This document shows, piece by piece, positions 27,202-46,608 of a stretch of 50,894 nt of DNA. The DNA lies in the IMG/VR virus record IMGVR_UViG_3300017743_004392, positions 1 to 50,894 of that record. One strand, written 5' to 3'. Made by a program: the position numbers and the translations under genes. Position 1 is the stretch's first letter, and each line of letters opens with the position of its first letter. Below the pieces are notes generated by a model. The model ran no database searches and was not told the origin of the DNA. It saw only the letters and a list, made by a program, of their open reading frames with translations. This DNA is from a virus.

Positions 27202-27215
27202 ACGTCATATGACGT
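27202..27215. promoter_or_regulatory. 14-bp perfect palindrome, likely operator
   Basis: ACGTCATATGACGT is its own reverse complement. It ends two bases before the TTTG -33 element of the promoter at 27217. A partial copy, ACGTCATATG, occurs upstream at 27169-27178. Location between divergent genes (27146 minus, 27271 plus) fits a repressor or activator site. Confidence 0.5.
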
Positions 27216-27216
27216 C

Positions 27217-27248
27217 TTTGGAGGTGCCAAATACTTTTCGTATATTTA
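27217..27248 (+). promoter_or_regulatory. promoter, TTTG-N20-TATATTTA
   Basis: TTTG at 27217-27220, 20 bases, TATATTTA at 27241-27248, followed by GGTATAATAAAAAT. It matches the Bacteroidetes promoter pattern and the phage cassette. It should drive the 27271 micro-protein and the genes after it. Confidence 0.7.
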
Positions 27249-27270
27249 GGTATAATAAAAATTTAAAACC

Positions 27271-28460: not shown

Positions 28461-28639
28461 CATTCAAGTGGTTAGATAAAACATATGAAATCCTTGGTGA
28501 ACGGAAAGAACAACTACTAAGAGATTTTCAACATTGTGAGGAAATAAAAGATTACGGAACAATCAATAATAGAATAATAAAAGGAACCAAATGGGGTTGG
28601 TTGAAAGACCTCAATAATTTAAAACAAACAAATAAATAA
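28454..28639 (+). CDS. hypothetical protein, 61 aa
   Basis: A 61-residue protein with an alternating-charge helix (YEILGERKEQLLRDFQHCEEI). It begins at a TTG inside the end of the previous gene (no ATG in frame) and its TAA overlaps the lipoprotein ATG by one base. Not recognised. Confidence 0.5.
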   Translation: MVTFKWLDKTYEILGERKEQLLRDFQHCEEIKDYGTINNRIIKGTKWGWLKDLNNLKQTNK

Positions 28640-29856
28640 TGACAAACTCAGTTACAAAATGGGGTATAGCAGTAGCGATCCTTACAATGTTAGGTTGTGA
28701 AAAAGATAATTCAAGTAATAATACACCTCGACCACCACTTTCTAACATAATTAAATCAGGTCAAATCACAGCAGATGAAACATGGGATTCAACCTCCGTA
28801 ATTCAACTTGATGGGAGGGTAGTAGTTACAAACGGAGCCACTCTTACTATTAAACCCGGAACTATTATTAAATCATCTGCGGGTCAAGAGGCAAATGCAA
28901 CTAATTTAATTATAACTAGAGGTTCAAAAATTATGGCTGAGGGTACTCCTAATGCGCCAATTATTTTTACTTCAATTGCTGATGCAATCCAACCTGGGGA
29001 GATTGTATCTTCTAACCTTAACTCTACCTATAGTGGTTTATGGGGTGGGTTACTTATCTTAGGTAAAGCTCCTATTTCAGCTCAAGGTGATGTTATATCA
29101 ACTCAAATTGAAGGTATCCCCCCATCTGATACTAGTGGTTTATATGGAGGAAATGACTCACTAGATAACTCAGGAGTATTAAAGTATGTATCCATCAGAC
29201 ATGGAGGTGCTTTAATTGGAGCAGGAAACGAAATTAATGGTCTAACACTTGGTGGAGTAGGTAGTGGTACTACTATAGAAAATATAGAGGTAGTAGCTAA
29301 TTTTGACGATGGAATAGAGTTTTTCGGTGGAAATGTAAATTGCACTAATCTACTAGTATGGCATCAGGGAGATGATGCATTTGATATTGACCAATCCTAT
29401 AGTGGAACTATTAATAATATTGCTTACTTTGCAAATAATGCTTCTGATCATGCCCTAGAAATTGATGGTCCTGAGGGTTCAATGGATGGTTCATTTACTC
29501 TTACTAATGGAACATTCATCGGTGACTCTACCTTTAGTGGAGAGTATGCTGACTTTAGAGATGGGGCTATGGGTACTCTTACTAATTTATGTTTCGAAGA
29601 CTTTTCGAGTGATGCTGATGTAGAAATAGATGATAATACTACCTCAGATAATTATAAAAATGGTAAACTAGTATTTAATTACCCCTGGGAGTTCAGGTCA
29701 ACTCAGACTTTTAAGGACATTTTTAAAGATAATTCAGACAATGGAGATGCGTTCCAGGACTCCTCATTTGTATTCTTCACCAAGACAACTTCAACAGGTG
29801 CTAATATGGGACCATTTGTTGGATGGACTTGGGGAAGTATTGTATTTAGTTTCTGA
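28639..29856 (+). CDS. surface lipoprotein with right-handed beta-helix
   Basis: A 405-residue secreted protein. The signal peptide (VTKWGIAVAILTMLGC) ends in a lipobox with Cys20, followed by EKDNSSNN, an acidic/Lys stretch like the lipoprotein export signal of Bacteroidetes that sends proteins to the cell surface. The mature part has repeated glycine/asparagine turns and short strands (GATLTIKPGTII, GGLLILGKAPI, SGVLKYVSIRHGG, NIEVVANFDDGIEFFGG, NCTNLLVWHQGDDAFDID), typical of a parallel beta-helix seen in Bacteroidetes cell-surface proteins. It looks host-derived. A role in host-surface change or blocking superinfection is inference. Confidence 0.82.
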   Translation: MTNSVTKWGIAVAILTMLGCEKDNSSNNTPRPPLSNIIKSGQITADETWDSTSVIQLDGRVVVTNGATLTIKPGTIIKSSAGQEANATNLIITRGSKIMAEGTPNAPIIFTSIADAIQPGEIVSSNLNSTYSGLWGGLLILGKAPISAQGDVISTQIEGIPPSDTSGLYGGNDSLDNSGVLKYVSIRHGGALIGAGNEINGLTLGGVGSGTTIENIEVVANFDDGIEFFGGNVNCTNLLVWHQGDDAFDIDQSYSGTINNIAYFANNASDHALEIDGPEGSMDGSFTLTNGTFIGDSTFSGEYADFRDGAMGTLTNLCFEDFSSDADVEIDDNTTSDNYKNGKLVFNYPWEFRSTQTFKDIFKDNSDNGDAFQDSSFVFFTKTTSTGANMGPFVGWTWGSIVFSF

Positions 29857-30032: not shown

Positions 30033-30119
30033 ATGGACCACTTAGATGCACTAATAGTTGCATTCCTAGCTTACACTGCAGTTACCTATTTAAGATATTT
30101 CTTTAAGAAAAATCTTTGA
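30033..30119 (+). CDS. membrane micro-protein, 28 aa
   Basis: A 28-residue peptide with one hydrophobic segment (ALIVAFLAYTAVTYL) and a basic end (RYFFKKNL). A second, overlapping small frame from ATG 30023 is possible but encodes no recognisable feature. Its TGA is part of the start of the promoter cassette that follows. Confidence 0.4.
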   Translation: MDHLDALIVAFLAYTAVTYLRYFFKKNL

Positions 30120-30124
30120 TGGTC

Positions 30125-30155
30125 TTTGGGGGTTAAGTTTATCTTCGTATATTCA
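30125..30155 (+). promoter_or_regulatory. promoter cassette, TTTG-N19-TATATTCA
   Basis: GATGGTC then TTTG at 30125-30128, GGGGTTAAG, TTCG, TATATTCA at 30148-30155 and CGGAGTAAATTAAAAACCCAA before the ATG at 30180. Member of the repeated cassette family. Confidence 0.8.
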
Positions 30156-30179
30156 CGGAGTAAATTAAAAACCCAAGAC

Positions 30180-30407
30180 ATGAAAAAAGCAACTAGAATT
30201 GACAATCTTCATCAAGCAATAGAACTCATTCACGAGGCAGTTGGATTGATTAGATGGTCAGTTGATGGAACCGAGGAGGAAGGAATGGCAAACGCCTATA
30301 TTATTCCTCATCTGGAAAATTGGGCTGAAGGAAACAATCCATACGACCACTCCCTTCCTAGAATTATTGAAAATCTAGAGAACGAATACGAAGACCCCGA
30401 AGATTAA
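30180..30407 (+). CDS. hypothetical protein, 75 aa
   Basis: A 75-residue acidic helical protein (RIDNLHQAIELIHEAVGLI, ending NEYEDPED). The ATG at 30180 is chosen because the promoter -7 box lies at 30148-30155; the longer in-frame version would begin upstream of the transcript. Not recognised. Confidence 0.65.
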   Translation: MKKATRIDNLHQAIELIHEAVGLIRWSVDGTEEEGMANAYIIPHLENWAEGNNPYDHSLPRIIENLENEYEDPED

Positions 30408-30419
30408 TCTTTGAGGGTC

Positions 30420-30450
30420 TTTGTTGGTTAAGAGATTCTTCGTATATTCA
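30420..30450 (+). promoter_or_regulatory. promoter cassette, TTTG-N19-TATATTCA
   Basis: CTTTGAGGGTC, TTTG at 30420-30423, TTGGTTAAGAGATTCTTCG, TATATTCA at 30443-30450, then TGGAGTAAG and an A-rich leader with AAAAAACCCAAATT before ATG 30482. Confidence 0.82.
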
Positions 30451-30481
30451 TGGAGTAAGTTAAAAATAAAAAACCCAAATT

Positions 30482-30985
30482 ATGCTTAAAAATTTCAAGA
30501 ACGGTTATGCTGTATGTGGTAATGATGAAACTGCCAAGCGTGAAAAGAACGATTGTGTGGTTAGAGCAATTGCCAATGCCTGTGATATCAATTATGAGCA
30601 AGCTCATGCCTTTGTAAAGGAAAAGTTTGGTCGTAAAGATGGACAAGGGACTTTAATGTTTAATCATGTTCTAAAGGAACTGAAAACAGTTCAATTTGAA
30701 CAAGTTGGTCAGTTGGATCTGTTCAATCCCACCAATGAAAGACAAATCAAGCACCTTGGTGATTGTCCTAAGTTTGGTGGCACATTGCGAAATCCAAAAT
30801 ACAAGCACAAGCCTGTTGCTTATACTGTCAAAGAGTTTGCCCGTCGTTTTAAGAAAGGCAATTTCATCTTGCAAGTAAACAAGCATGTCTTGGCAGTTAA
30901 GGATGGAGTGATTGTGGATAACAAGAACTACCAAACAGATGGTTATCGTCGTGTTGTAGAAAGTGCATTTCAAATTACTGTGTAA
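30482..30985 (+). CDS. papain-like cysteine protease-fold protein (putative)
   Basis: A 167-residue protein with KNDCVVRAIANACDINYEQAH at about residues 22-42, in which Asn-Asp-Cys at a helix start resembles the Cys nucleophile of papain-fold/NlpC-like enzymes, and HVLAVKDGVIVDN near 140-152, giving a His and Asn/Asp for a Cys-His-Asn triad. It may cleave a peptide or isopeptide bond, or deconjugate a host modifier. Its codon use is richer in G/C (GCC, CAAG) than the neighbouring late genes. The catalytic reading is inference from motif positions. Confidence 0.55.
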   Translation: MLKNFKNGYAVCGNDETAKREKNDCVVRAIANACDINYEQAHAFVKEKFGRKDGQGTLMFNHVLKELKTVQFEQVGQLDLFNPTNERQIKHLGDCPKFGGTLRNPKYKHKPVAYTVKEFARRFKKGNFILQVNKHVLAVKDGVIVDNKNYQTDGYRRVVESAFQITV

Positions 30986-31177
30986 ATGGAACAGGGAAAA
31001 CGTTTTAAAGGAGAAGTAGGGGAAATAGTAAAACACTGTGGTGTCAAGGCTAAAATTACTAGCATTAGTTGGTGTAGCTATACAAAACAATTCTTGTATA
31101 ATATTCAAGAGTTAAGATCCCCATTTTATCGAGTTCAGGCAGTAGGTGCTTTATGGGGGGCTTTAGAAAAGTATTAA
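30986..31177 (+). CDS. hypothetical protein, 63 aa
   Basis: A 63-residue protein with FKGEVGEIVKHCGVKAKITSISW, which looks like a small beta barrel. It starts with the ATG directly after the previous stop and is followed by ATG 31181 three bases later. Not recognised. Confidence 0.6.
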   Translation: MEQGKRFKGEVGEIVKHCGVKAKITSISWCSYTKQFLYNIQELRSPFYRVQAVGALWGALEKY

Positions 31178-31180
31178 GTA

Positions 31181-31624
31181 ATGGCATTGTGGGAATTTTC
31201 AAATCAGAACAAACACGGGAATTGGAGGTCCCGTGTTGTGTTCGTTCCTGAAGGCAAATCGTTCTCAATTCCTAAAGGGTTTGGGAACGTTTGTGCTTCT
31301 AGATTCAAGTATGTCCATAGACATCCTATCTTACCTCCTGTTTTAACAACAGGTCAAGATGGAAACAAATACATAATCCCAGGATCGACTAAAGTGCACC
31401 CACAAACAACACTAAAGGACATCAAATGGGAGAAACCACCCATTGTAAAAATTGAACGTAAAACAGAGAAATTCGAGTTCACATCGAGTTCTGATCCGAA
31501 TGTGACCTACATTACTAAAATGTATACAACGGGGTCAAACGTAAGTTACGCGTGCAATTGTCCTGGAGTTTGGCGGTCCAAGGATAAGAAATGTAAGCAT
31601 ATTAAATCGCTAGAAAATGGGTAG
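31181..31624 (+). CDS. SWIM zinc-finger protein (putative)
   Basis: A 147-residue protein. The C-terminus has C-N-C, twelve residues, C-K-H (YACNCPGVWRSKDKKCKH, about residues 124-141), which fits the SWIM zinc-finger pattern CxC-xn-CxH used for DNA or protein binding. The rest is basic and beta-rich (SRVVFVPEGKSFSIP). Role unknown; no SWI2 helicase or transposase domain is attached. Confidence 0.6.
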   Translation: MALWEFSNQNKHGNWRSRVVFVPEGKSFSIPKGFGNVCASRFKYVHRHPILPPVLTTGQDGNKYIIPGSTKVHPQTTLKDIKWEKPPIVKIERKTEKFEFTSSSDPNVTYITKMYTTGSNVSYACNCPGVWRSKDKKCKHIKSLENG

Positions 31625-31757
31625 GAAGGACACTAAAGACGAAAGAGCAGGAGCTCAACAGGTGCGTAGACGAACTATTACCAAGATCATCCCAGATAAA
31701 AGGAACAAGGAACGAGAAAATCAAATTAAAAAAGACATTCGAAAAGAAAATCTTTGA
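31617..31757 (+). CDS. hypothetical basic protein, 46 aa
   Basis: A 46-residue, strongly basic protein (starts MGRKDTKDERAGAQQ; contains DKRNKERENQIKKDIRK). Overlaps the SWIM gene by eight bases in another frame. Its TGA coincides with the 5' end of the next promoter cassette (CTTTGAGGGTC). Confidence 0.5.
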   Translation: MGRKDTKDERAGAQQVRRRTITKIIPDKRNKERENQIKKDIRKENL

Positions 31758-31762
31758 GGGTC

Positions 31763-31793
31763 TATGATGGTCTAAATATTTTTCGTATATTTA
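31763..31793 (+). promoter_or_regulatory. promoter cassette, TATG-N19-TATATTTA
   Basis: GAGGGTC, TATG at the -33 place (31763-31766), 19 bases ending TTTTTCG, TATATTTA at 31786-31793, CCCTGTAATTAAAAACCCAATT before ATG 31816. Confidence 0.78.
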
Positions 31794-31815
31794 CCCTGTA
31801 ATTAAAAACCCAATT

Positions 31816-32553
31816 ATGAACAAAGTAAAATTAGTGACACTTAAGGATGTCAAGTTCAACAAAGACTTGTTTGTTCCTATGAAAACAGGAACCAAGGTTG
31901 ATGAGATGTTCTCTTCCGATGGTGGTTTGATGCCCGCCACAAACACAATCCTCACCGGTGATCCAGGTGCAGGTAAGACAACCGTGTTGTTAGATATTTT
32001 GGGGGATTTGCAAGCCAAGGGCAAAAAGGTTTTGTTCGTGTCTGCAGAGATGAACCAAATTGACATGCACGGTTATGTAAAACGATTCCCAAAGTTTGGT
32101 AAGATTCCAACTTTGTTTCTAGGGGATTATGGTGAGTTTCCAAAGCAAGCAGTTGAATCAGTCCTCAATGAGGGTTGGGATGCTGTTGTAATGGACAGTT
32201 GGGCAGAGGTTTCTGAGCAACTCAAAGGTGCTTCTTCCAGTTATATGTCCGAAACAAAAGCCGATTCCATTATTTTGAGTTGGTTAGAGGAACACAACAA
32301 TGGTAATAATAAAGCCAAAAAGAACACAGCATTTCTAGTGGTCCAACAGATTACTAAGGGTGGTAAGTTCACAGGTTCAAATCGTTTGAAGCACATGACT
32401 ACAGCAATGGGTCATATTGAGTTTAAGAACGAAGTCCGTTCATTGTATTTTTCCAAGAACCGGAGAGGTGGTCGTATGGATAAGCTCAATTTCCACTTGG
32501 CGGCTTCAAACAAAGTAGGTTACACAAGTTTCACTTCAGCAAACGAGGAATAA
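31816..32553 (+). CDS. RadA/Sms-like RecA-fold ATPase
   Basis: A 245-residue ATPase. Walker A GDPGAGKTT at 48-56, VLFVSAEMN, Walker B AVVMDSW, the VVQQITKGGKFTGSNRLKHM segment and the KNRRGG motif correspond to the RadA/Sms ATPase core (in RadA: ITKxG-x-(A/G)GP-x-x-LEHM and KNRFG). The N-terminal zinc finger and C-terminal Lon-like domain of cellular RadA are missing. It may drive branch migration or D-loop processing in recombination-dependent replication. A DnaB-like helicase ATPase is less likely because KNRFG-like and ITK motifs are present. Codon use is richer in G/C than the sugar genes. Confidence 0.8.
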   Translation: MNKVKLVTLKDVKFNKDLFVPMKTGTKVDEMFSSDGGLMPATNTILTGDPGAGKTTVLLDILGDLQAKGKKVLFVSAEMNQIDMHGYVKRFPKFGKIPTLFLGDYGEFPKQAVESVLNEGWDAVVMDSWAEVSEQLKGASSSYMSETKADSIILSWLEEHNNGNNKAKKNTAFLVVQQITKGGKFTGSNRLKHMTTAMGHIEFKNEVRSLYFSKNRRGGRMDKLNFHLAASNKVGYTSFTSANEE

Positions 32554-32569
32554 ATTAAAAAACACAACT

Positions 32570-32782
32570 ATGGATTTGACAACAATTTACAATGAGGCTC
32601 GCACCCTAGTGGATTCAAATAAAATGGATGAAGCTAGAGATATGTGTGATTTGGGGATACTAAAAGTTGCCCAACATCGAATGGAAGGTATCCAAGTAGA
32701 AGAAAAAATTGAACGCATAAAAGTGGGTGTTTGGTTAGAACGGTTCTGGTTTTTGCTAGAAAATAATAATCTTCTTCTTTGA
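32570..32782 (+). CDS. hypothetical helical protein, 70 aa
   Basis: A 70-residue, helix-rich protein: TTIYNEARTLVDSNKMDEARDMC resembles a single TPR-like helix pair. The stop (TGA) forms the beginning of the following promoter cassette. Not recognised. Confidence 0.6.
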   Translation: MDLTTIYNEARTLVDSNKMDEARDMCDLGILKVAQHRMEGIQVEEKIERIKVGVWLERFWFLLENNNLLL

Positions 32783-32787
32783 GGGTC

Positions 32788-32818
32788 TTAGAGGGTTAAG
32801 AGATTTTTCGTATATTCA
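32788..32818 (+). promoter_or_regulatory. promoter cassette, TTAG-N19-TATATTCA
   Basis: TTTGAGGGTC, TTAG at 32788-32791, AGGGTTAAGAGATTTTTCG, TATATTCA at 32811-32818, CGTGTAAGAAAAAA before ATG 32840. Confidence 0.78.
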
Positions 32819-32839
32819 CGTGTAAGAAAAAAAAGAGAT

Positions 32840-33133
32840 ATGCCAAAAACAGTTGTATTAGACGAGTTCCAAATAAAGGAACTTGTGGAAAATGGGGAAA
32901 CAATATCTGATGGAGTCAGTATTGTAAGTGAATTTCAAGCAAGAAAGCCTGAAAGACTTAAGGAGTTACAGACCCACCTAAATGACGTAATGGTCTCTTA
33001 TCATCCCGAAACGTATTTGAATGATCAGATATGGGGAAAGTTCAATGAACTAAAACAAGAAATCCAAAAGGAAATCGATCAATCACTAATTAAAGAAATC
33101 AAAAGGAAGCAAGCAAATGGCGACACGAAGTAG
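32840..33133 (+). CDS. hypothetical protein, 97 aa
   Basis: Not recognised. Helical, charged protein (VVLDEFQIKELVENGETISDGVSIV at the N-terminus, a helix-rich C-terminus rich in Lys/Glu). Overlaps the next gene by 17 bases in another frame. Confidence 0.65.
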   Translation: MPKTVVLDEFQIKELVENGETISDGVSIVSEFQARKPERLKELQTHLNDVMVSYHPETYLNDQIWGKFNELKQEIQKEIDQSLIKEIKRKQANGDTK

Positions 33134-33470
33134 AATTGCAGTAAAGGAAGGTAAGGTCTGGAAAAGTGTTTATGTGCACTGGGATGGTTATCCTGATGGT
33201 GTTGGAAAAGAACTAGTTGAAAACTATGCCCTACCCAGGGAAATAAACAAACTTCTAGACATTGCCCACCGAAGTTCTCTTATAGGGGATCCGGAAGGAG
33301 AAACAGGGTATGGGGATTTATGTGATGAATTTGAAACCCTTCAGAACCTTATGGAGGCCTTTAATCAAGAGGATACTGAATACCTTTACCAGCTAGATGA
33401 AGTTATTGATGGTGAGGTCATTTGGAAGTGTTTTGGAAAAAAAGAAAATAAGGAAATTAACCTTTACTGA
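33117..33470 (+). CDS. conserved phage protein (MATRSRI-type), unknown function
   Basis: A 117-residue protein with MATRSRIAVKEGKVWKSVYVHWDGYPDGVG, a pattern I know from many phage hypothetical proteins (short strands with HWDGYP). It is followed by an acidic helical region with a Gly-Tyr-Gly (GYGDLCDEF) turn. No enzymatic function is known for the family as far as I am aware. Confidence 0.75.
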   Translation: MATRSRIAVKEGKVWKSVYVHWDGYPDGVGKELVENYALPREINKLLDIAHRSSLIGDPEGETGYGDLCDEFETLQNLMEAFNQEDTEYLYQLDEVIDGEVIWKCFGKKENKEINLY

Positions 33471-33475
33471 TGGTC

Positions 33476-33506
33476 TTTGAGGGTTAAGAGATTTTTCATA
33501 TATTCA
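33476..33506 (+). promoter_or_regulatory. promoter cassette, TTTG-N19-TATATTCA
   Basis: TGATGGTC, TTTG at 33476-33479, AGGGTTAAGAGATTTTTCA, TATATTCA at 33499-33506, then CGCTGTAATTAAAAAG before ATG 33531. Here TTTCG is changed to TTTCA. Confidence 0.8.
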
Positions 33507-33530
33507 CGCTGTAATTAAAAAGAAAAAAGG

Positions 33531-33815
33531 ATGCGGATTACACCAACACAAGAATCAAGAGTAAAATTGCTTTTAGCCATGAAAAGAGATTTGGCTCATT
33601 CATTTGCAGAAATGTTTGCTGATATGTCTGAGGACATGATGGATGGAGGTATGGAACATTTAAAAAATGATTTTGCGGGACTTGGTGAAAACATTTACCG
33701 AATCTTTTCAGCAACCAAGTTCAGTGAACTTGAAATGTTGTGTGGAGAGATGTATGGGTGGGGTGCCTCAGAATGGCTTGATTACCTAAATAAATTTCTG
33801 GATGGAAATGAGTAA
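33531..33815 (+). CDS. hypothetical helical protein, 94 aa
   Basis: Not recognised. Mostly alpha-helical with Met-rich stretches (MFADMSEDMMDGGMEHL). ATG 33531 follows a cassette promoter. Overlaps the next gene by 14 bases. Confidence 0.65.
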   Translation: MRITPTQESRVKLLLAMKRDLAHSFAEMFADMSEDMMDGGMEHLKNDFAGLGENIYRIFSATKFSELEMLCGEMYGWGASEWLDYLNKFLDGNE

Positions 33816-34125
33816 TTCAATGGAATATGTCTCTCGTTTTAGAGCCCTAGCTGAAATTCTAGAAAGGATAGGTGCCCAACTCGAAATGAAAGATGAAAAA
33901 CCCCTAATTAGGAGTTTTAATAATGGGAAGGAACTCATATATTATTTTTCTAGTATTGGGGATTTTGGAATGGGTCCCCAAGAGGAGGAAAAACTATTGG
34001 ATGTTTTCCCTCTTAAAGTAGGGGGCCTAGAATTTTCCAACCCAATTTATCACCCCTATGAGGTCGAATATGATGGGGACAATGCTTCTTCGGCAACGTT
34101 GTCCTTTACAATTCGTTGGACTTAA
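33802..34125 (+). CDS. hypothetical protein, 107 aa
   Basis: Not recognised. An N-terminal helix (YVSRFRALAEILERIGAQLE) followed by strands with acidic loops (FGMGPQEEEKLLDVFPLKVGG, then SATLSFTIRWT at the end). Alpha/beta protein, no Cys motif. Confidence 0.6.
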   Translation: MEMSNSMEYVSRFRALAEILERIGAQLEMKDEKPLIRSFNNGKELIYYFSSIGDFGMGPQEEEKLLDVFPLKVGGLEFSNPIYHPYEVEYDGDNASSATLSFTIRWT

Positions 34126-34142
34126 AGTATTTACTGAGGGTC

Positions 34143-34173
34143 TTTGATGGTTAAAATACTTTTCGTATATTTA
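34143..34173 (+). promoter_or_regulatory. promoter cassette, TTTG-N19-TATATTTA
   Basis: GAGGGTC, TTTG at 34143-34146, ATGGTTAAAATACTTTTCG, TATATTTA at 34166-34173. The stretch from GAGGGTC through TATATTTAC is identical to the cassette at 35088. Confidence 0.82.
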
Positions 34174-34193
34174 CCACGTTGAAAATTACAGAT

Positions 34194-34490
34194 ATGACGA
34201 TCCAAGAAGCAATTGACAAGTGCCAAAATGTCCAAGTTGACCAACAAGTAAGCTTTAAATTCAGTTATAAGGGAACAGCCGGTCCTAAAACATATGAACT
34301 AATTTCAAGCAAGTATGGTACCAATTCACCACCTCTAATGTCTGTGAGTGAGGGGGGTTGGAGGTCAATGAATGTATTAAAGACGACCAAGCAATACATT
34401 ACCTTGTACGATTACAACATGATGGGAGTCCGATCCAGTTACAAAATGGCAATTGACAAGATCCAAGTAATAGAAGAAACCACAAAATAA
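34194..34490 (+). CDS. hypothetical protein, 98 aa
   Basis: Starts at ATG 34194 (MTIQEAIDKC). A TTG at 34179 in frame lies where transcription should begin (six bases after the -7 box), so it is not used. Beta-rich protein with VSFKFSYKGTAGPKTYEL and YNMMGVRSSYKMAIDKI. Not recognised. Confidence 0.6.
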   Translation: MTIQEAIDKCQNVQVDQQVSFKFSYKGTAGPKTYELISSKYGTNSPPLMSVSEGGWRSMNVLKTTKQYITLYDYNMMGVRSSYKMAIDKIQVIEETTK

Positions 34491-34648
34491 TGGAAACAAA
34501 CAGCTTATTCCAGGACATCATTGCTGAGTGTCTTTACTTGGCCCATGAATTTGAATGTGAAGGGGACTTGTCCCGTGCACGTGAATTTTTTGAGTTGGGG
34601 GTTTGGTATGTTAAACAAGGTCTACTAGATACTCCAATGGAGGTCTAG
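34490..34648 (+). CDS. hypothetical acidic helical protein, 52 aa
   Basis: A 52-residue acidic protein (METNSLFQDIIAECLYLAHE, ends DTPMEV) resembling a helix pair. One-base overlap with the previous stop (TAATG). The TAG stop lies inside the next promoter cassette (GGTCTAGGATGG). Confidence 0.55.
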   Translation: METNSLFQDIIAECLYLAHEFECEGDLSRAREFFELGVWYVKQGLLDTPMEV

Positions 34649-34676
34649 GATGGTTAAAGTTTTTTTCGTATATTTA
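34646..34676 (+). promoter_or_regulatory. promoter cassette, TAGG-N19-TATATTTA
   Basis: GGAGGTC, TAGG at 34646-34649, ATGGTTAAAGTTTTTTTCG, TATATTTA at 34669-34676, then GGTGTAAGAAAAAA before ATG 34700. Confidence 0.78.
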
Positions 34677-34699
34677 GGTGTAAGAAAAAAATAAAAAGA

Positions 34700-34777
34700 A
34701 TGAAGGACTGTAATAATTGTTCCGATACGTACCTGTACCCTGATGAAATGTGTCCAACTTGTAATAGGATTGGGTGA
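34700..34777 (+). CDS. tiny zinc-ribbon peptide, 25 aa
   Basis: A 25-residue peptide (MKDCNNCSDTYLYPDEMCPTCNRIG) with two CxxC pairs twelve residues apart, enough to bind one zinc ion. It is the first start codon after a cassette promoter and its TGA overlaps the next ATG. Its small size lowers confidence. Confidence 0.5.
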   Translation: MKDCNNCSDTYLYPDEMCPTCNRIG

Positions 34778-35082
34778 TGAATAAGGACTGTAAGAGGTGG
34801 AATTTTGTAAGTACTTACTACAAAAACCAACCCAAAGAGGAGGTTGCCAATGACATCTTGAAGTATTTCAAGTATGAAAGAGATGAACGACCTGCAGACA
34901 TGGGTGACCCTAGGTGGTGGGATGGAAATCCCCCATTTGATGGAATGTCAGACGAGCAAATCCTTGAAATAATAGAAGGATACATGAACGATCAATTTTT
35001 CCAAAGTCCTGTGGTCCAAGAAAACTATGACACACCCTCAGATCTAGCATGGGAAATTTACTGCAGATTAAATCGTTTTTGA
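34777..35082 (+). CDS. hypothetical protein, 101 aa
   Basis: Not recognised. Starts at the ATG overlapping the previous TGA (TGATG); a GTG three bases earlier is possible. Acidic with Trp and Asp repeats (ADMGDPRWWDGNPPFDGMSDE). The TGA stop merges with the following cassette. Confidence 0.65.
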   Translation: MNKDCKRWNFVSTYYKNQPKEEVANDILKYFKYERDERPADMGDPRWWDGNPPFDGMSDEQILEIIEGYMNDQFFQSPVVQENYDTPSDLAWEIYCRLNRF

Positions 35083-35087
35083 GGGTC

Positions 35088-35118
35088 TTTGATGGTTAAA
35101 ATACTTTTCGTATATTTA
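35088..35118 (+). promoter_or_regulatory. promoter cassette, TTTG-N19-TATATTTA
   Basis: GAGGGTC, TTTG at 35088-35091, ATGGTTAAAATACTTTTCG, TATATTTA at 35111-35118, CGTGTAAGAAAAAATAAAGAAACCCAAT before ATG 35147. Same sequence as the 34143 cassette through TATATTTAC. Confidence 0.82.
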
Positions 35119-35146
35119 CGTGTAAGAAAAAATAAAGAAACCCAAT

Positions 35147-35497
35147 ATGACTAAGAAAGACCAAAGGAAAGAGATTGAAAGTGCAATTTTTGACTATGCC
35201 AAAAAGGCAGGGTTTGAAGTAGACACTGATGAGGGTCGTTACATTAATGTGTATCTTGACAACACCTCAGAAAATGTGGTTGAAATATGTCGTTCCAAAT
35301 TCACGACTGCCATTTGGAATAGTGCATCTGATGAGACCAAGGAGGTTGAAAAAGAACTACAGTATGTTATCCAAGATGCCCGAATGACAATTGAAATGAT
35401 TGAGCGGGCAGAGTCCAATAGGTGCAATTCAGAGTATTCTGAAAGGCAATATAGAGAGGCTTGCATGGCACATGCTGAACGTTTTTCTTACGATTGA
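35147..35497 (+). CDS. hypothetical protein, 116 aa
   Basis: Not recognised. Alpha/beta protein with KKDQRKEIESAIFDYAKKAGFEVD at the start and acidic helices (EVEKELQYVIQDARMTIEMIERAE). Single gene behind its own promoter, followed by the hairpin leader at 35523. Confidence 0.65.
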   Translation: MTKKDQRKEIESAIFDYAKKAGFEVDTDEGRYINVYLDNTSENVVEICRSKFTTAIWNSASDETKEVEKELQYVIQDARMTIEMIERAESNRCNSEYSERQYREACMAHAERFSYD

Positions 35498-35522
35498 TTG
35501 TTGGGTTTATTTTGTTCCCTTA

Positions 35523-35556
35523 AGCCGCCTCAGTGCGGCTTTCGGGGGCGAACAAA
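35523..35556 (+). promoter_or_regulatory. hairpin leader with TTTCGG..GGCGAACAAAAA
   Basis: AAGCCGC (35522-35528) and GCGGCTT (35535-35541) form a perfect stem with loop CTCAGT, followed by TCGGGGGCGAACAAAAAAC. The flanks TTTTGTTC (upstream) and GAACAAAA (downstream) can also pair, making a longer hairpin. A very similar hairpin leader precedes the minus-strand gene at 37231. It may be a terminator, processing site or translational control element; there is no U-run after the stem. Confidence 0.6.
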
Positions 35557-35565
35557 AAACAAGCT

Positions 35566-35952
35566 ATGTTTAAATTTAAAAACCTCGTATTTACGCACAA
35601 GCCATTGGGTGGAGTTGGATCTCACACTGTATTTGATAATGGAATGACTGTTAGTGTCCAAGCTAGTAAGACGAATTACTGTAGCCCCCGAGAAGATCTT
35701 CCCAATAAGAACGAGTATGAATCGTTTGAGGTGGCAGTCTGGGATGAGGTAGGAAATTGGCGGACTAGAGAATTCATTGATGACCCTAAGCATAATGATG
35801 ATGTTGCCGGTTGGCAATCCAGGGAACAAATTGATGAGTTGCTTAAGAAAGTACAAAAGTTTTGGGAACTAAAACCCGTTAAAGAGGATTTAGAAAATGA
35901 AATTTTGGCCGCCAAAGAGACCTTAGATATTAGGATTGAACACACAAAATAA
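35566..35952 (+). CDS. hypothetical protein, 128 aa
   Basis: Not recognised. ATG 35566 is chosen because a hairpin occupies 35522-35541 and a GTG start at 35533 would lie inside it. Contains FTHKPLGGVGSHTVFDNGMTVSVQASK and WDEVGNWRTREFI, giving a beta-rich N-terminus and a helical C-terminal part (EDLENEILAAKETLDIR). Confidence 0.65.
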   Translation: MFKFKNLVFTHKPLGGVGSHTVFDNGMTVSVQASKTNYCSPREDLPNKNEYESFEVAVWDEVGNWRTREFIDDPKHNDDVAGWQSREQIDELLKKVQKFWELKPVKEDLENEILAAKETLDIRIEHTK

Positions 35953-35965
35953 TTTAATGAGGGTC

Positions 35966-35996
35966 TAGGATGGTTAAAGCATTTTTCGTATATTTA
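35966..35996 (+). promoter_or_regulatory. promoter cassette, TAGG-N19-TATATTTA
   Basis: GAGGGTC, TAGG at 35966-35969, ATGGTTAAAGCATTTTTCG, TATATTTA at 35989-35996, then AGGGTAATAAAAAAG before ATG 36020. Confidence 0.78.
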
Positions 35997-36019
35997 AGGG
36001 TAATAAAAAAGAAAAAGGT

Positions 36020-37234: not shown

Positions 37235-37280
37235 TTGGGTTTTTTGTTCGCCACCGAAACCCGCTCTAGGCGGGTCCGGA
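37235..37280 (-). promoter_or_regulatory. hairpin leader (second copy)
   Basis: On the minus strand: ACCCGC, CTAGA, GCGGGT, then TTCGGTGGCGAACAAAAAACCC just before the gene at 37231. Matches the leader at 35523 in hairpin position and in TTTCGG(G/T)GGCGAACAAAAAAC, although the stem bases differ, which is what one expects of a conserved RNA structure. Confidence 0.6.
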
Positions 37281-37302: not shown

Positions 37303-37587
37303 TTATTCTGCAGGGAACTCAATTTCAACTTGCACGTCCTTGTTTTTGGAAGGACGACCACGCTTGGCAAGCACAAACTCATCACCCATGTAGGCTTTGA
37401 GGGTTTTGTAAATAAACGCGTGACGATCTTTAGGACCGAACAATGCCTCCATTTCGGCCTTGATCTCAGAACGGGACAAACCGGCCAAATGCAATCCAAT
37501 GATTGCTTGCTTTTTGTTCATTCCGAAGTTGGCAACTGCATTCTGGACATCAGCTACTACGGGGTTGGAAGTTGTGGTATTGGACAT
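37303..37587 (-). CDS. hypothetical protein with basic AT-hook-like motif
   Basis: A 94-residue protein. The middle (KKQAIIGLHLAGLSRSEIKAEMEALFG) looks like helix-turn-helix-type helices and the tail has KRGRPSK, similar to an AT-hook that inserts in AT-rich minor groove. It may be a DNA-binding regulator or architectural protein. It sits behind its own cassette promoter on the minus strand. Confidence 0.65.
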   Translation of the reverse strand: MSNTTTSNPVVADVQNAVANFGMNKKQAIIGLHLAGLSRSEIKAEMEALFGPKDRHAFIYKTLKAYMGDEFVLAKRGRPSKNKDVQVEIEFPAE

Positions 37588-37625
37588 AGGTGTTTGTTTT
37601 GGGTTTTTATTTTTTTTCTTACACG

Positions 37626-37656
37626 TAAATATACGAACTCTTACTCTGCCATCCTA
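37626..37656 (-). promoter_or_regulatory. promoter cassette, minus strand (TAGG-N19-TATATTTA)
   Basis: Reverse complement reads GAGGGTC, TAGG (37656-37653), 19 bases ending AGTTCG, TATATTTA (37633-37626), CGTGTAAGAAAAAA. Drives the 37587 gene leftward. Confidence 0.78.
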
Positions 37657-37661
37657 GACCC

Positions 37662-37850
37662 TCAATCGATTCTTTTAATAATCTGCATTGAGGAAAAACA
37701 GCAGGTGAAAAACACAGCAGCCATAAAGATAAATTCATTCATGCCTGCGGTTCCAGATTCAATTTGAGTGTTAATGGTGACCATGATGGACAATGCAAGT
37801 GTTCCAATGATCATCAACAGGGTAGCGAGGGAATATTTGAAGTAGTTCAT
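37662..37850 (-). CDS. two-helix membrane protein, 62 aa
   Basis: A 62-residue protein with two hydrophobic helices (ATLLMIIGTLALSIMV and FIFMAAVFFTCCF) and a basic tail. ATG 37850 is chosen because a GTG at 37868 would lie close to the promoter start. Minus strand, with cassette promoter upstream. Not recognised. Confidence 0.65.
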   Translation of the reverse strand: MNYFKYSLATLLMIIGTLALSIMVTINTQIESGTAGMNEFIFMAAVFFTCCFSSMQIIKRID

Positions 37851-37881
37851 GGTGTGTATTTTTTTCACGTTTCTTACAATG

Positions 37882-37912
37882 TAAATATACGCACAGATCT
37901 TGTGCCAACCTA
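37882..37912 (-). promoter_or_regulatory. promoter cassette, minus strand (TAGG-N19-TATATTTA)
   Basis: Reverse complement: TTAGGGTC, TAGG (37912-37909), TTGGCACAAGATCTGTGCG, TATATTTA (37889-37882), CATTGTAAGAAACG. Drives the membrane gene at 37850. The spacer contains the inverted repeat GCACAAGATCTGTGC. Confidence 0.75.
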
Positions 37913-37956
37913 GACCCTAAAAAAAGAAAAATAAAAAAATTTTGTGGGGCGTACGG

Positions 37957-37982
37957 GCGTACGGTGGGGGCATACCGTACGC
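37957..37982. repeat. 9-bp inverted repeat with 8-base loop
   Basis: GCGTACGGT (37957-37965) and ACCGTACGC (37974-37982) are perfect reverse complements around GGGGGCAT. A direct copy of GCGTACGG precedes it at 37949-37956. Related GCGTGCGTA follows at 37981-37989. Confidence 0.7.
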
Positions 37983-38150
37983 GTGCGTATAGTAGTAATA
38001 TGGGCCCACGCGCGCCGTTGTCCATATGGCGTGTATATGTCCAAAAAAGGGATTAGACGGCTTTAATGCACGTAAGTAACTATAGTATAGGGAAATCGTA
38101 TATACAAATCTTTAACATTCGACAAATATATCAAAATATCCCCACCTAAA

Positions 38151-38294: not shown

Positions 38295-38515
38295 GTGAAG
38301 AAAACCAAAACGGGGAAAACGAATGGGAAAATGACCCAGATATGCAAGAATTTTTAGAATGGGCGGACGAACCCGGACCATGGGACGAAGAAGACGATAA
38401 AATCCATACCGTGGGGGGACTCACCAACGATAAGAAAAATGGATTTATGAGCTTTGTAAATAAAACAAAAGACAATAAACCAGACGAAGACCAAGATGAG
38501 TCTCCCGCGCAGTAA
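38291..38515 (+). CDS. hypothetical very acidic protein, 74 aa
   Basis: A 74-residue protein rich in Glu, Asp and Asn (MSEENQNGENEWENDPDM, ends DEDQDESPAQ). Probably disordered with a central EFLEWADEPG motif. Such acidic phage proteins often mimic DNA or inhibit host factors, which is inference only. Confidence 0.6.
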   Translation: MSEENQNGENEWENDPDMQEFLEWADEPGPWDEEDDKIHTVGGLTNDKKNGFMSFVNKTKDNKPDEDQDESPAQ

Positions 38516-38516
38516 A

Positions 38517-38548
38517 TTTGGATGCGCCGGAGAATTTTCGTATATTCC
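38517..38548 (+). promoter_or_regulatory. promoter, TTTG-N20-TATATTCC (class B)
   Basis: TTTG at 38517-38520, GATGCGCCGGAGAATTTTCG, TATATTCC at 38541-38548, CGGTGTAATAAAAAAA before ATG 38575. Upstream spacer differs from class A cassettes but matches the promoter at 40787. Confidence 0.75.
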
Positions 38549-38574
38549 CGGTGTAATAAAAAAATATATACCAA

Positions 38575-39450: not shown

Positions 39451-39750
39451 ATGAAGCTATTAACAGAAGAAATTTTTGATGATAGTGGGAGGGTTATATA
39501 TCACAAACATGGAAAAACTTGGTGGAAAGATGAGTATGATGAACGAGGTAATTTAATCAGACATGAAACCTCTGATGGGTATTGGAGAATCGCAGAGTAT
39601 GACTCCCAAAATCGAATTACAGGATGGGAAACATCAGCCGGATTTTGGGAAAAGGACATTACCTATGATAAAAACGGAATTAAAACCTATTCAAAACATT
39701 CAAGATATGGAAAATGTGGTGTGGGTTTAAGAATTTATGTTGAAAAATAA
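39451..39750 (+). CDS. YD-repeat-like small protein, 99 aa
   Basis: A 99-residue protein with repeated YD/E-x-x-G units (DEYDERGNLIRHETSDGYW, AEYDSQNRITGWETSAGFW, ITYDKNGIKTYSKHS), similar to Rhs/YD repeats. Three repeats of about 22 residues are visible. Function unknown. 69 bases after the previous gene; the gap holds no clear signal. Confidence 0.65.
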   Translation: MKLLTEEIFDDSGRVIYHKHGKTWWKDEYDERGNLIRHETSDGYWRIAEYDSQNRITGWETSAGFWEKDITYDKNGIKTYSKHSRYGKCGVGLRIYVEK

Positions 39751-39757
39751 TAAAAAT

Positions 39758-40186
39758 ATGAAAATAGCTATAGGAGGTGACCATGCTTCACCTGATTTAA
39801 AAGAATTTATTATTGGATATCTCCAAAAAGAGGGATATGAAGTTGGAGACTTTGGAACTAACTCTTCAGAAAGTGTTGATTATCCTGATTTTGGGCATAA
39901 GGTTGCTAGATCTATTTACTACAAATATTCCGATTTGGGAATTGTTATTTGTGGGTCTGGGAATGGGATTAATATGTCTGTAAATAAATGGCCTAATTTA
40001 AGGTCGGCTTTGTGTTGGAATCCCGAAATAGCAGAACTAGCTCGCCAACATAATGATGCCAATATATTAGCCCTCCCAGCTAGGTTTGTATCCTTGGCAG
40101 AAGGTTTAGATATTGTAAAGTCTTTTTTGAATACTGAGTTTGAAGGAGGAAGACACCAAAAGAGAGTAGATAAAATAACACCATAA
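39758..40186 (+). CDS. rpiB: ribose-5-phosphate isomerase B
   Basis: A 142-residue sugar-phosphate isomerase: IAIGGDHASPDLKEFI at the start, SVDYPDFGHKVA, VICGSGNGINMSVNKW (catalytic Cys and anion hole), RSALCWNPEIAELARQHNDANILALPARF and EGGRHQKRVDKI all match RpiB. It interconverts ribose-5-P and ribulose-5-P in the pentose phosphate pathway and could feed nucleotide synthesis during infection. ATG 39758 gives the usual RpiB N-terminus. Size is typical (about 140-150). Confidence 0.95.
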   Translation: MKIAIGGDHASPDLKEFIIGYLQKEGYEVGDFGTNSSESVDYPDFGHKVARSIYYKYSDLGIVICGSGNGINMSVNKWPNLRSALCWNPEIAELARQHNDANILALPARFVSLAEGLDIVKSFLNTEFEGGRHQKRVDKITP

Positions 40187-40187
40187 A

Positions 40188-40469
40188 ATGGACTATACTA
40201 AATTAATTAAAGAAACCTGTGATGAGGTTCGTGATTTACTCATAGAGAAGAATACAGCATACGGGCATTCTGTGTTTAAACCCATAGATAAGTTTGGTAT
40301 ACGCATTCCTCCTATAGAATCCATACTTGCGCGTATGGCCGATAAGGAAGCACGTATAGCAAATAAAGGATTCAATGACCAAACAGAAGATACTCTTAAA
40401 GATTTGATTGGTTATATGATCCTCCTATATGTTGTTGTTAAAATCCAAGAACAAAATAAAGATGAATAA
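40188..40469 (+). CDS. DUF1599-like phage protein
   Basis: A 93-residue helical protein: LLIEKNTAYGHSVFKP, then ILARMADKEARIANKGFNDQTEDTLKDLIGYMILLYV. The pattern (Lys-Asn-x-x-Tyr-Gly, acidic EDTxxDLIGY) resembles the DUF1599/MazG-like nucleotide-related family common in phages. A nucleotide-pool function is possible but not shown. Confidence 0.65.
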   Translation: MDYTKLIKETCDEVRDLLIEKNTAYGHSVFKPIDKFGIRIPPIESILARMADKEARIANKGFNDQTEDTLKDLIGYMILLYVVVKIQEQNKDE

Positions 40470-40785
40470 AATACTCTTATTGATTCCACTTATGATAGGG
40501 TGTACGGCAACCGACGTAAATTACAAATACGACTTTTCAGCTATATACACTGTAGATAGATTAGGTAGAGCAGAATGGGGTGGACATCAATTTATAGTGG
40601 ATGAACCTATCACCAATATGAACTCATTTAAAGAATGTTATGTAAACTATCTTAATGAGCAAAAAGGAATTGGTAGATACAAACAAATATACTATAACGA
40701 TTCAAATAATGTTCAGATAACATTTATGAAGGAAACATATGTGCCCTACCACACAGTAGAATATTCACTAAATTCCTGTAATTAA
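40462..40785 (+). CDS. small predicted lipoprotein
   Basis: A 107-residue protein with signal peptide MNKILLLIPLMIGC, Cys at 14, then TATDVNYKYDF. ATG 40462 overlaps the previous stop by eight bases; an in-frame upstream ATG at 40429 would spoil the signal peptide. The mature protein is beta-rich with two late Cys. Probably envelope-located; function unknown. Confidence 0.7.
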   Translation: MNKILLLIPLMIGCTATDVNYKYDFSAIYTVDRLGRAEWGGHQFIVDEPITNMNSFKECYVNYLNEQKGIGRYKQIYYNDSNNVQITFMKETYVPYHTVEYSLNSCN

Positions 40786-40786
40786 G

Positions 40787-40818
40787 TTTGGATTCACCGG
40801 AGATCTTTCGTATATTTC
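40787..40818 (+). promoter_or_regulatory. promoter, TTTG-N20-TATATTTC (class B)
   Basis: TTTG at 40787-40790, GATTCACCGGAGATCTTTCG, TATATTTC at 40811-40818, GGTATAATAATAAAAAATA before ATG 40844. Shares CCGGAGA with the 38517 promoter. Confidence 0.75.
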
Positions 40819-40843
40819 GGTATAATAATAAAAAATAAAAGTT

Positions 40844-41250: not shown

Positions 41251-41727
41251 ATGAAGTGTATTTCTTGGGAAGAGTCATTAAATTACATACCCCTAGGGGA
41301 ACAAGAAGGAGTTAGTTTTTCTGATTGCAAGTATTATACTTTTACTCCTGAAGAGAATGAATGGGAATCTGTAAAATATTTCACAGGAACTAAACGTAAT
41401 AGATTTAATGGTCTATCTGCTGAGGGTACACATTGGGTATATGTGTTAGAAAATAATGCTATGCCCGGACTTTATAAAATAGGTTTTACAAAAGATGGTG
41501 TTGGACCTGAAAAAAGAGCAAAACAAGTATCTCGTTCATCGGGTGTTCCAACTCCATTCACTGTAAAATGGGCTTTTAAATGTTTTGATGGAATGGCTTT
41601 AGAACAACAAGTACATAAAAAACTTAACCATTCCAGAATAAATAACGATAGAGAATTTTTTAATGAAGATTTTGAAGTTATAAAAGAAACTATAGAAACA
41701 CTAGGACAAAACTTTATAAAAGCATGA
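41251..41727 (+). CDS. T5orf172/GIY-YIG-like domain protein
   Basis: A 158-residue protein. HWVYVLENNAMPGLYKIGFTKDGVGPEKRAKQVSRSSGVPTPF is the T5orf172 (MUG113-like) variant of GIY-YIG nuclease domains: Tyr-Val-Leu, Tyr-Lys-Ile-Gly, and Arg. The C-terminal ALEQQVHKKLNH and REFFNEDF complete the domain. It may be a DNA-cleaving or binding protein. It ends in a four-base overlap with the next gene. Confidence 0.75.
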   Translation: MKCISWEESLNYIPLGEQEGVSFSDCKYYTFTPEENEWESVKYFTGTKRNRFNGLSAEGTHWVYVLENNAMPGLYKIGFTKDGVGPEKRAKQVSRSSGVPTPFTVKWAFKCFDGMALEQQVHKKLNHSRINNDREFFNEDFEVIKETIETLGQNFIKA

Positions 41728-42129: not shown

Positions 42130-42420
42130 ATGTATAGACCATTACCAGATTGCTTAACAATTGATAAATCCACAATTGAAGGTATTGGATTATTTGCTAA
42201 AGAAGAAATTTCTAAAGGAGTTTATTTAGGAATTACTCATATTCAAACCGAAAAATATGCTTTAGTAAGAACCCCTTTAGGTGGATTTATCAACCATAGT
42301 GAGACCCCAAATTGTAAAATTAAAAAAGATGGGGATACAAAATATTTAACCACTCTAGCTGATATCCAACCCGGAGAAGAATTAACAGTTAAATACACAA
42401 TGTATAATCCTTCTAAGTAA
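42130..42420 (+). CDS. SET-domain protein, minimal
   Basis: A 96-residue protein that is nearly only a SET domain: IEGIGLFAKEEISKG (16-30), the SAM/pseudoknot motif FINHSETPNC (53-62) and GEELTVKY (82-89). SET domains methylate lysine using S-adenosylmethionine. Cysteine-rich pre/post-SET regions are absent, so it is at the short end of the family. Substrate may be a phage or host protein. It lies directly after two tRNAs and before a ferredoxin. Confidence 0.85.
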   Translation: MYRPLPDCLTIDKSTIEGIGLFAKEEISKGVYLGITHIQTEKYALVRTPLGGFINHSETPNCKIKKDGDTKYLTTLADIQPGEELTVKYTMYNPSK

Positions 42421-42427
42421 ATAAAAA

Positions 42428-42685
42428 TTGAGTCATATAATAGGTAAAAAATGTATTGGAGTTAAAGATGGGGTATGTATAGAAGTTTGCCCCATTGATG
42501 ATTGTATACAAGAAGCCGAAGACTCAATGTTTATTAATCCCGAGGAATGTATAGATTGTGGAATGTGTATATCTGAATGCCCTGTAGCAGCTATTTATGC
42601 AGATGAAGATGAAGCAATATCCGAGGAAGGAGTTGAAGTAGTTAAAAATAATTACGAGTTTTTTAATGTAGAGTATAACCCCTAA
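42428..42685 (+). CDS. 7Fe-type ferredoxin
   Basis: An 85-residue protein with Cys at 9, 17, 21, 26 and 41, 44, 47, 51. CIDCGMCISECPV is a clear [4Fe-4S] motif. In the first half, the second Cys of a classical CxxC is missing (CIGVKDGVC, then CP), as in bacterial FdxA, giving the 3Fe/4Fe arrangement. An acidic tail follows. It starts at a TTG (42428), with no in-frame ATG before the first Cys. It could supply electrons to a host or phage reductase; no obvious partner is in the window. Confidence 0.85.
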   Translation: MSHIIGKKCIGVKDGVCIEVCPIDDCIQEAEDSMFINPEECIDCGMCISECPVAAIYADEDEAISEEGVEVVKNNYEFFNVEYNP

Positions 42686-45597: not shown

Positions 45598-45899
45598 TTT
45601 ATTTAGCAATTGGTTCCGTAATATTATCATTAGTCCTCGGGTTTACTACATTCAATCTAATGAGAAAAATAGAAAAATACGAGGATTGGAGCACATCCCA
45701 GCAAAATTACTTGGAGGAGGTATCCTCTGTCATTACGTTTATAGATGAACGCATTCAAGAATTAGATAAGAAGCAGTCTTTTTCTTCGGATGATGAAGTA
45801 GGTTTCTTTTTTGAAAGGGTAAAAATGTTAAATGACCTACTAAAACGATATGAACTAGATTATGGCAAAAAAGACTCGAAAGAAAAAGTCATCAAATAA
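45594..45899 (+). CDS. membrane-anchored coiled-coil protein, 101 aa
   Basis: A 101-residue protein with one N-terminal membrane helix (IYLAIGSVILSLVLGFTTFNL) and a long charged, probably coiled-coil tail. Overlaps the sigma-factor gene by 38 bases in another frame. Not recognised. Confidence 0.65.
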   Translation: MIYLAIGSVILSLVLGFTTFNLMRKIEKYEDWSTSQQNYLEEVSSVITFIDERIQELDKKQSFSSDDEVGFFFERVKMLNDLLKRYELDYGKKDSKEKVIK

Positions 45900-46608
45900 T
45901 TATTTTACACAAGACACAGAAGATGCTATAGTAGAATATAATAATTGTGATGATTCCGATGTAAGATCCCGATTATATGAAAGAAGAATACATTATCCTT
46001 TTTTCAAACTTACAGAAAATATAATCCACACCTACAAATTCTACCACACTGAGGTAGACGAATTAGAGCACCTACAACACGAGGTAATTACCTTTTTGCT
46101 CTCCAAAATTCATAAATTCGATCCTACAAGGGGGGCTAAAGCCTATTCTTACTTTGGAACTATAGCTAAAAGATATCTTATCTTAAGCAACCAAAAAGTC
46201 TATAAAAAGAAGGTAGAAAAAACACAAGTAGAAGAAGTAGACAAGTACGATAAGTTTTCTTATACTATAGAAAATTCTCCTACAGGTGGAGACCCATATT
46301 ACTCAGAAAAATTATCTAAGTATATGGATGAATTTATAGATTATCATACCCATTATTTATATGAAATTTTTCCTAATTTTGAAGATGCTCAAATAGCAGA
46401 TGCAATTTTAGAGATATTCCGTCAAAGGGAAAATATTAACATTTTTAATAAAAAGGCCTTATACATTTATATTAGGGAAATGGTTGACGTACCTACCCCT
46501 AAAATTACTAAAGTAGCTCGTATTATGTATGACGAGATATTTCAACCTAATTACCTTTTTTACCTTAGTAATGGATATATTGACTTCCCTCAGAAGCAAT
46601 ATTTATAA
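45862..46608 (+). CDS. 55: late-transcription sigma factor, gp55-like
   Basis: A 248-residue protein. The N-terminal IHYPFFKLTENIIHTYKFYHTE and KIHKFDPTRGAKAYSYFGTIAKRYLI resemble sigma region 2 and the T4-like gp55 family (gp55 is shorter, 185). Gp55 directs host RNA polymerase to TATAAATA late promoters with clamp assistance. A gp45-like clamp at 1949 and TATAAATA sequences in the window fit this. It directly precedes the baseplate genes. Confidence 0.78.
   Translation: MAKKTRKKKSSNNYFTQDTEDAIVEYNNCDDSDVRSRLYERRIHYPFFKLTENIIHTYKFYHTEVDELEHLQHEVITFLLSKIHKFDPTRGAKAYSYFGTIAKRYLILSNQKVYKKKVEKTQVEEVDKYDKFSYTIENSPTGGDPYYSEKLSKYMDEFIDYHTHYLYEIFPNFEDAQIADAILEIFRQRENINIFNKKALYIYIREMVDVPTPKITKVARIMYDEIFQPNYLFYLSNGYIDFPQKQYL

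Follow-up and report, generated by a model that had tools for sequence, protein, structure and literature searches.

A promoter-like cassette family in the small-gene region of a T4-like Bacteroidota phage, with a fixed core and a -33 region that appears to be set by lineage

The stretch of DNA considered here, referred to as the window, is the entire IMG/VR virus record IMGVR_UViG_3300017743_004392 (50,894 bases) and carries genes for a family-A DNA polymerase, GroEL, glycosyltransferases, a virion structural protein and a baseplate wedge protein, the last of which is 47% identical to its counterpart in Flavobacterium phage immuto. The gene order on the annotated immuto map (PolA, GroES/EL, glycosyltransferases, a run of small genes, baseplate) matches that of the window, and this order and the baseplate identity together mark the window, as judged from its genes, as part of the genome of an immuto-related, T4-like myovirus of Bacteroidota. 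A nucleotide search of phage records with the window returned tRNAs and one 49-nucleotide (nt) match and nothing else, and a protein search of genome contigs returned a single distant contig of a metagenome-assembled genome, which gave no clue to the host. Inside the small-gene region lies an array of eleven repeated units, putative promoters that we refer to as class-1 cassettes and which are the subject of this report.

A sequence-only reading of this region had proposed a dispersed family of promoter cassettes, and the family is real: all eleven sites, nine on the plus strand and two on the minus strand between positions 30112 and 37925, are found where that reading had placed them and can be aligned with no gap between -36 and about +20 relative to the hexamer TATATT, over more than 50 nt, with a spacing of 19 nt that is exact in every copy. 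When a weight matrix was rebuilt without each copy in turn and the left-out copy then scored, the class-1 copies reached 30-71 bits, against 24.7 bits for the best non-member site in the window (at 27241, a member of a related second class) and 6.9 bits for the highest score in 20 dinucleotide shuffles. The copies with -33 elements at 34143 and 35088, said to be identical over about 38 bases, share 40 nt. The other elements listed as common are less regular than the spacing, with TTTG at -33 exact in five of the eleven (the remainder being TATG, TTAG or TAGG), GAGGGTC exact in seven and GGTTAA in eight, and on the minus strand both copies read GGCAGA/GGCACA and are without TTTTTCG. An open reading frame (ORF) begins on the same strand 28-46 nt after TATATT in all eleven cases, but the description of one cassette for each small gene was overstated, since about 22 genes follow the 11 cassettes, that is, one cassette for one to four genes.

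The upstream part of the cassette is a 10-bp direct repeat, TGAGGGTCtt/TGATGGTTaa (TGAGGGTC/TGATGGTT), which matches itself at 5.1 of 8 positions at an offset of 10, compared with 1.1-2.8 at other offsets; an offset of 10 bp is exactly one helical turn. From the sequences compared, this tandem form is a variant specific to the window lineage. In seven cassettes the preceding gene also ends within the unit, with TGA at -31 in six of them and TAG at -23 in the other, a count in which six come from an analysis of ORF placement and the seventh, in the copy at 30148, was read as the end of a 28-aa ORF.

Promoter families were also built de novo from related phages, which we sorted by sequence into two groups, A and B. 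An equivalent cassette family occupies the syntenic region of immuto (25 copies) and is present in other relatives, designated L115 (28 copies), L147 (24), L122 (21), L125 (14), L156 (13), L176 (12) and L135 (11). All of these families keep the core TTCGTATATT or a close form of it, and the -33 region varies by lineage, being AGTTGC in immuto, TTTGGnnnCC in group A and AAGGAATA in group B. A fixed position and strand before an ORF, a -7-like box and a leader running to ATG are found in 11/11 window cassettes and in nearly all of the 192 copies from relatives, which bears out the earlier suggestion of promoter units that stand before small genes and are conserved well past the bare boxes. The window itself holds three promoters of the TTTGG type (class-2; at 27241, 38541 and 40811), which coexist with class-1, and L115 likewise carries two promoter types together.

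The similarity of cassettes follows the genome and not the gene. Over -36 to -5 the class-1 cassettes are 0.72 identical among themselves, whereas their identity to the cassettes of orthologous genes is 0.35 in group A (18 pairs; 0.35 for random pairs) and 0.41 in group B (10 pairs; 0.42 for random pairs). The class-1 promoters of the genes at 30482 and 31816 show no conservation with those of their orthologs (0.36/0.36 and 0.35/0.38), and the class-2 promoter of the gene at 38575 does resemble those of its orthologs (0.49 vs 0.37). No recognisable paralogy was found among the genes downstream of the cassettes (best E 0.056), and gene duplication was rejected on this basis as the cause of cassette spread. 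The similarity within the genome, the chance-level similarity between orthologs and the lack of paralogy together suggest that the -33 region of the promoter set was replaced together in the window lineage, and it appears that in each phage line the whole set has been rewritten in this way over a fixed core.

We consider it fairly likely that the class-1 cassettes are pre-replicative promoters, most probably early ones, of a T4-like Bacteroidota phage, and that they form a concertedly evolving set with a lineage-set -33 region. Each unit would consist of stop codons, mostly those ending the preceding gene, an upstream specificity element (in the window lineage, the tandem repeat), the core common to the clade, TTCGTATATT(T/C)A, and an A-rich leader up to the next ATG. 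The core would be read by the RNA polymerase of the host, probably with a phage factor that assists or modifies it, and the -33 region would be set genome-wide and differ between phage lineages; the set would evolve together, either by copying between cassettes or through selection from one trans-acting partner, both of which are possible, and the cassettes would in addition be tolerated junctions for gene exchange. Traits of the early type are seen in the many copies, the extra consensus beyond the sigma boxes and the small genes downstream, and placement and number lead us to favour early over middle timing. Several points weigh against this interpretation. Exact class-1 patterns had no match in IMG/VR and GTDB genomes, and no second genome carrying class-1 was found in these viral and bacterial collections, so that the cassette is so far private to the window record; the search for a cognate factor was confined to the 50,894-base genome fragment; the promoter reading and its timing were both drawn from sequence; and unaided recognition by host sigma is uncertain, given the frequent departures from TTTG and the A at -5 described below, from which middle timing could follow.

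Middle timing is the chief alternative, given that the -33 box is degenerate, its place being taken by the one-turn repeat. Here, an activator with a MotA-like role would bind the tandem repeat in place of the -33 element while host sigma reads the -7 box, much as T4 middle promoters have a MotA box (an activator site) in place of -35 (PMC2988021), and early timing would fall to the TTTGG-type class-2 promoters, in keeping with the two classes found side by side in the window and in L115. We regard this as rather unlikely, as no activator was identified among the candidates examined and the cassettes stand mostly before small genes of unknown function and not before replication genes. A cassette-linked protein resembling a helix-turn-helix regulator (37303-37587) was one candidate set aside, having no family match and a poor single-sequence model (predicted local distance difference test, pLDDT, 56). 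That the cassettes are ordinary host-consensus Bacteroidota promoters, merely alike, is very improbable. Their spacing of 19 and their TA..TT fit the -33/-7 layout, and to this extent the spacing of Bacteroidetes promoters claimed at the outset stands, lying within the 19-21 of Bacteroidota sigma-ABfr promoters, but the boxes themselves do not match. In F. johnsoniae promoters the -7 element reads TAHHTTTG, its G at -5 hardly ever varying, and the -33 motif is weak (PMC6847099), whereas position -5 is A in all eleven class-1 cassettes, and G is found there in 0/30 cassettes of immuto and in 1/76, 3/41 and 0/49 of those from other relatives (4/207 over all sets). Sites of the host type, TTTG-N19-21-TAHHTTTG, number 0-2 per phage locus against 0.3-1.0 expected, with no clear excess. 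The TTCG upstream is foreign to host promoters, conservation extends across 45 nt (including the 40-nt identity), and the relatives have the core in common but not the -33 region. Judged by these motifs, class-1 cassettes are not host-consensus promoters.

The sequence-only reading had also likened the cassettes to PeSLs, reportedly the promoter early-stem loops of T4-like phages. As mobile units of this type they would combine a promoter with a terminator stem-loop and serve chiefly as homology for gene shuffling, and one part of the comparison holds, in that homology blocks between relatives tend to start at the upstream edge of the cassettes. At -60 to -20 of promoters there are 102 left ends of such blocks where about 22 are expected, and at +20 to +60 there are 43 right ends where about 21 are expected, although similar cassettes lengthen alignments to their edges and so inflate such breaks, and the loci are non-independent. 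A break lies in 138 of 271 gene junctions with a promoter (51%) and in 337 of 982 without one (34%), a modest preference; any gene junction tolerates breaks. In the window both class-2 promoters held in common with L010 sit at a break (38494 and 40779). The stem-loop is where the likeness fails: a spacer hairpin scores above shuffles in only 1/11 window cassettes, and no plus-strand terminator was found adjoining class-1 cassettes in the window. Among relatives such hairpins are more frequent (10/26 in immuto, 16/76 and 8/41 in group A, 9/49 in group B) and lie downstream of the -33 region and ahead of the T-run that leads into TATATT, resembling an intrinsic terminator built into the promoter. 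They are seen in a minority of promoters of L096, L125, L127, L135, L159 and others, several with GNRA or UUCG tetraloops, for example GGAGC-GAGA-GCTCC-TTCG-TATATT. That the TTTTTCG run owes its presence to an embedded terminator was rejected for class-1 in the window and is supported in a minority of the relatives' cassettes. Membership of class-1 among PeSLs is not supported, and we consider a PeSL-type explanation improbable, while cassette-bounded gene exchange in relatives is moderately supported by the alignments. It is scarcely credible that the cassettes are dispersed protein-binding or recombination sites and not promoters; their extended conservation and tandem repeat would suit such a role, but the fixed place and strand before an ORF, the -7-like box and the leader to ATG, kept throughout the window set and almost throughout the relatives, do not.

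A separate late-type motif, TATTTATAA, precedes structural and other genes with a strand bias, plus-strand copies preceding an ORF in 9/10 cases in the relative L097 and 5/6 in the window, where sites lie at 24918, 27874, 43018, 46600 and 48233. The ORF at 45862-46608, which adjoins the baseplate genes and is conserved in many relatives, has a Sigma70_r2 match (Table 1) that is nevertheless below the Pfam cut-off; one of its 24 orthologs matches the phrog_234 'late sigma' family (E 0.0035), and among its viral fold neighbours phage sigma factors form the majority, at low TM-scores. This sigma-like protein is the likely reader of TATTTATAA, and the distinct motif and the ORF together point to a clade in which there appears to be a T4-like split into pre-replicative and late promoters.

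Table 1. Coordinates of the class-1 and class-2 cassettes and of the sigma-like gene in the window
Feature	Position	Strand	TATATT	Remarks
Class-1	30112..30168	+	30148	TGA inside ends upstream 28-aa ORF
Class-1	30407..30463	+	30443	Sole copy with spacer hairpin above shuffles
Class-1	31750..31806	+	31786	Before RecA/DnaB-like ATPase gene; TGA inside ends upstream gene
Class-1	32775..32831	+	32811	TGA inside ends upstream gene
Class-1	33463..33519	+	33499	TGA inside ends upstream gene
Class-1	34130..34186	+	34166	40 nt same as copy at 35111
Class-1	34633..34689	+	34669	TAG inside ends upstream gene
Class-1	35075..35131	+	35111	TGA inside ends upstream gene; 40 nt same as copy at 34166
Class-1	35953..36009	+	35989	
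Class-1	37613..37669	-	37633	TGA inside ends upstream gene
Class-1, most diverged	37869..37925	-	37889	Perfect GCACA-AGATC-TGTGC spacer hairpin
Class-2 (TTTGG type)	27205..27261	+	27241	
Class-2	38505..38561	+	38541	Before phrog_12094 gene; kept in orthologs; L010 homology starts 47 nt upstream of TATATT (38494)
Class-2	40775..40831	+	40811	L010 homology resumes at 40779
Divergent sigma-like protein, candidate late sigma	45862..46608	+		Sigma70_r2 E 2e-5 in genome search

Other features of the region were noted in passing. Two copies of one stem-loop, each followed by GGCGAACAAAAAAC and then a start codon, lie at 35532-35560 (plus strand) and 37239-37267 (minus strand) of the window with no promoter cassette. 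At 288-895 of L010, in a place taken by other genes in the window, small genes are separated by a repeated leader, TTAACACCAAAGAGAGATG, again with no promoters. L010 is about 90% identical to the window and lacks its genes at 40429-40785, 41251-41727 and 42130-42685, among which are a T5orf172 nuclease-like protein and, by eye, SET-like and ferredoxin-like proteins. Also by eye, the window encodes a ribose-5-phosphate isomerase B-like protein (39737-40186) and a protein with a lipoprotein-type N-terminus (28639-29856). A GC-rich palindromic CGTACGG stretch lies in the gap between divergently transcribed genes in the window (37930-38030) and in L096 (16309-16827), and in immuto ACCCGT repeats stand directly ahead of the cassette array; these stretches and repeats are possible origin or control regions.

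Targeted searches of open literature returned no paper on promoter sets of Bacteroidota T4-like phages, and class-1 is the window's member of a wider set in these phages that is apparently undescribed. The cassettes in themselves are not what is notable; it is their apparent coordinated re-coding from one lineage to the next while the core stays the same. We tentatively suggest, as a possibility that we hold with some doubt, that each lineage has changed the -33 specificity elements of its whole promoter set jointly, with the TTCGTATATT core kept, the reason being that they are read by a polymerase partner which the phage encodes or modifies. If so, related phages would each have an early or middle promoter code closed to the others, and cassettes would spread as units running from stop codon to start codon, independently of the genes that they drive. 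A whole set re-coded together would amount to a natural experiment on changing a phage transcription code at a dozen sites or more; phage immuto and its Flavobacterium host offer a system that can be tested at the bench, and the cassettes would be candidate strong promoters for Bacteroidota genetics.

Among known systems, the cassettes resemble the early promoters of T4, in which many strong promoters stand before small early genes and extra consensus regions outside the sigma boxes are known (PMC2988021), but they differ in having the Bacteroidota core TTCGTATATTNA and not -35/-10, an upstream tandem repeat and a lineage-specific -33 region that is uniform within each genome. With T4 middle promoters they share a replaced -33 region and a retained -7 box, although no MotA or AsiA relative was identified and the repeated upstream element is longer than the MotA box. 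The Flavobacterium sigma-ABfr promoters (TTTG/TAHHTTTG) have the same layout and spacing and the same T-12, A-11, T-8 and T-7, whereas the phage cassettes have A and not G at -5, a frequent C at -6, TTCG upstream and a degenerate TTTG. Like PeSLs, finally, they recur as promoter units at junctions between genes, and it is at such junctions that homology breaks in relatives, but ten of the eleven in the window have no significant stem-loop, and the hairpins of relatives, where present, lie inside the promoter spacer.

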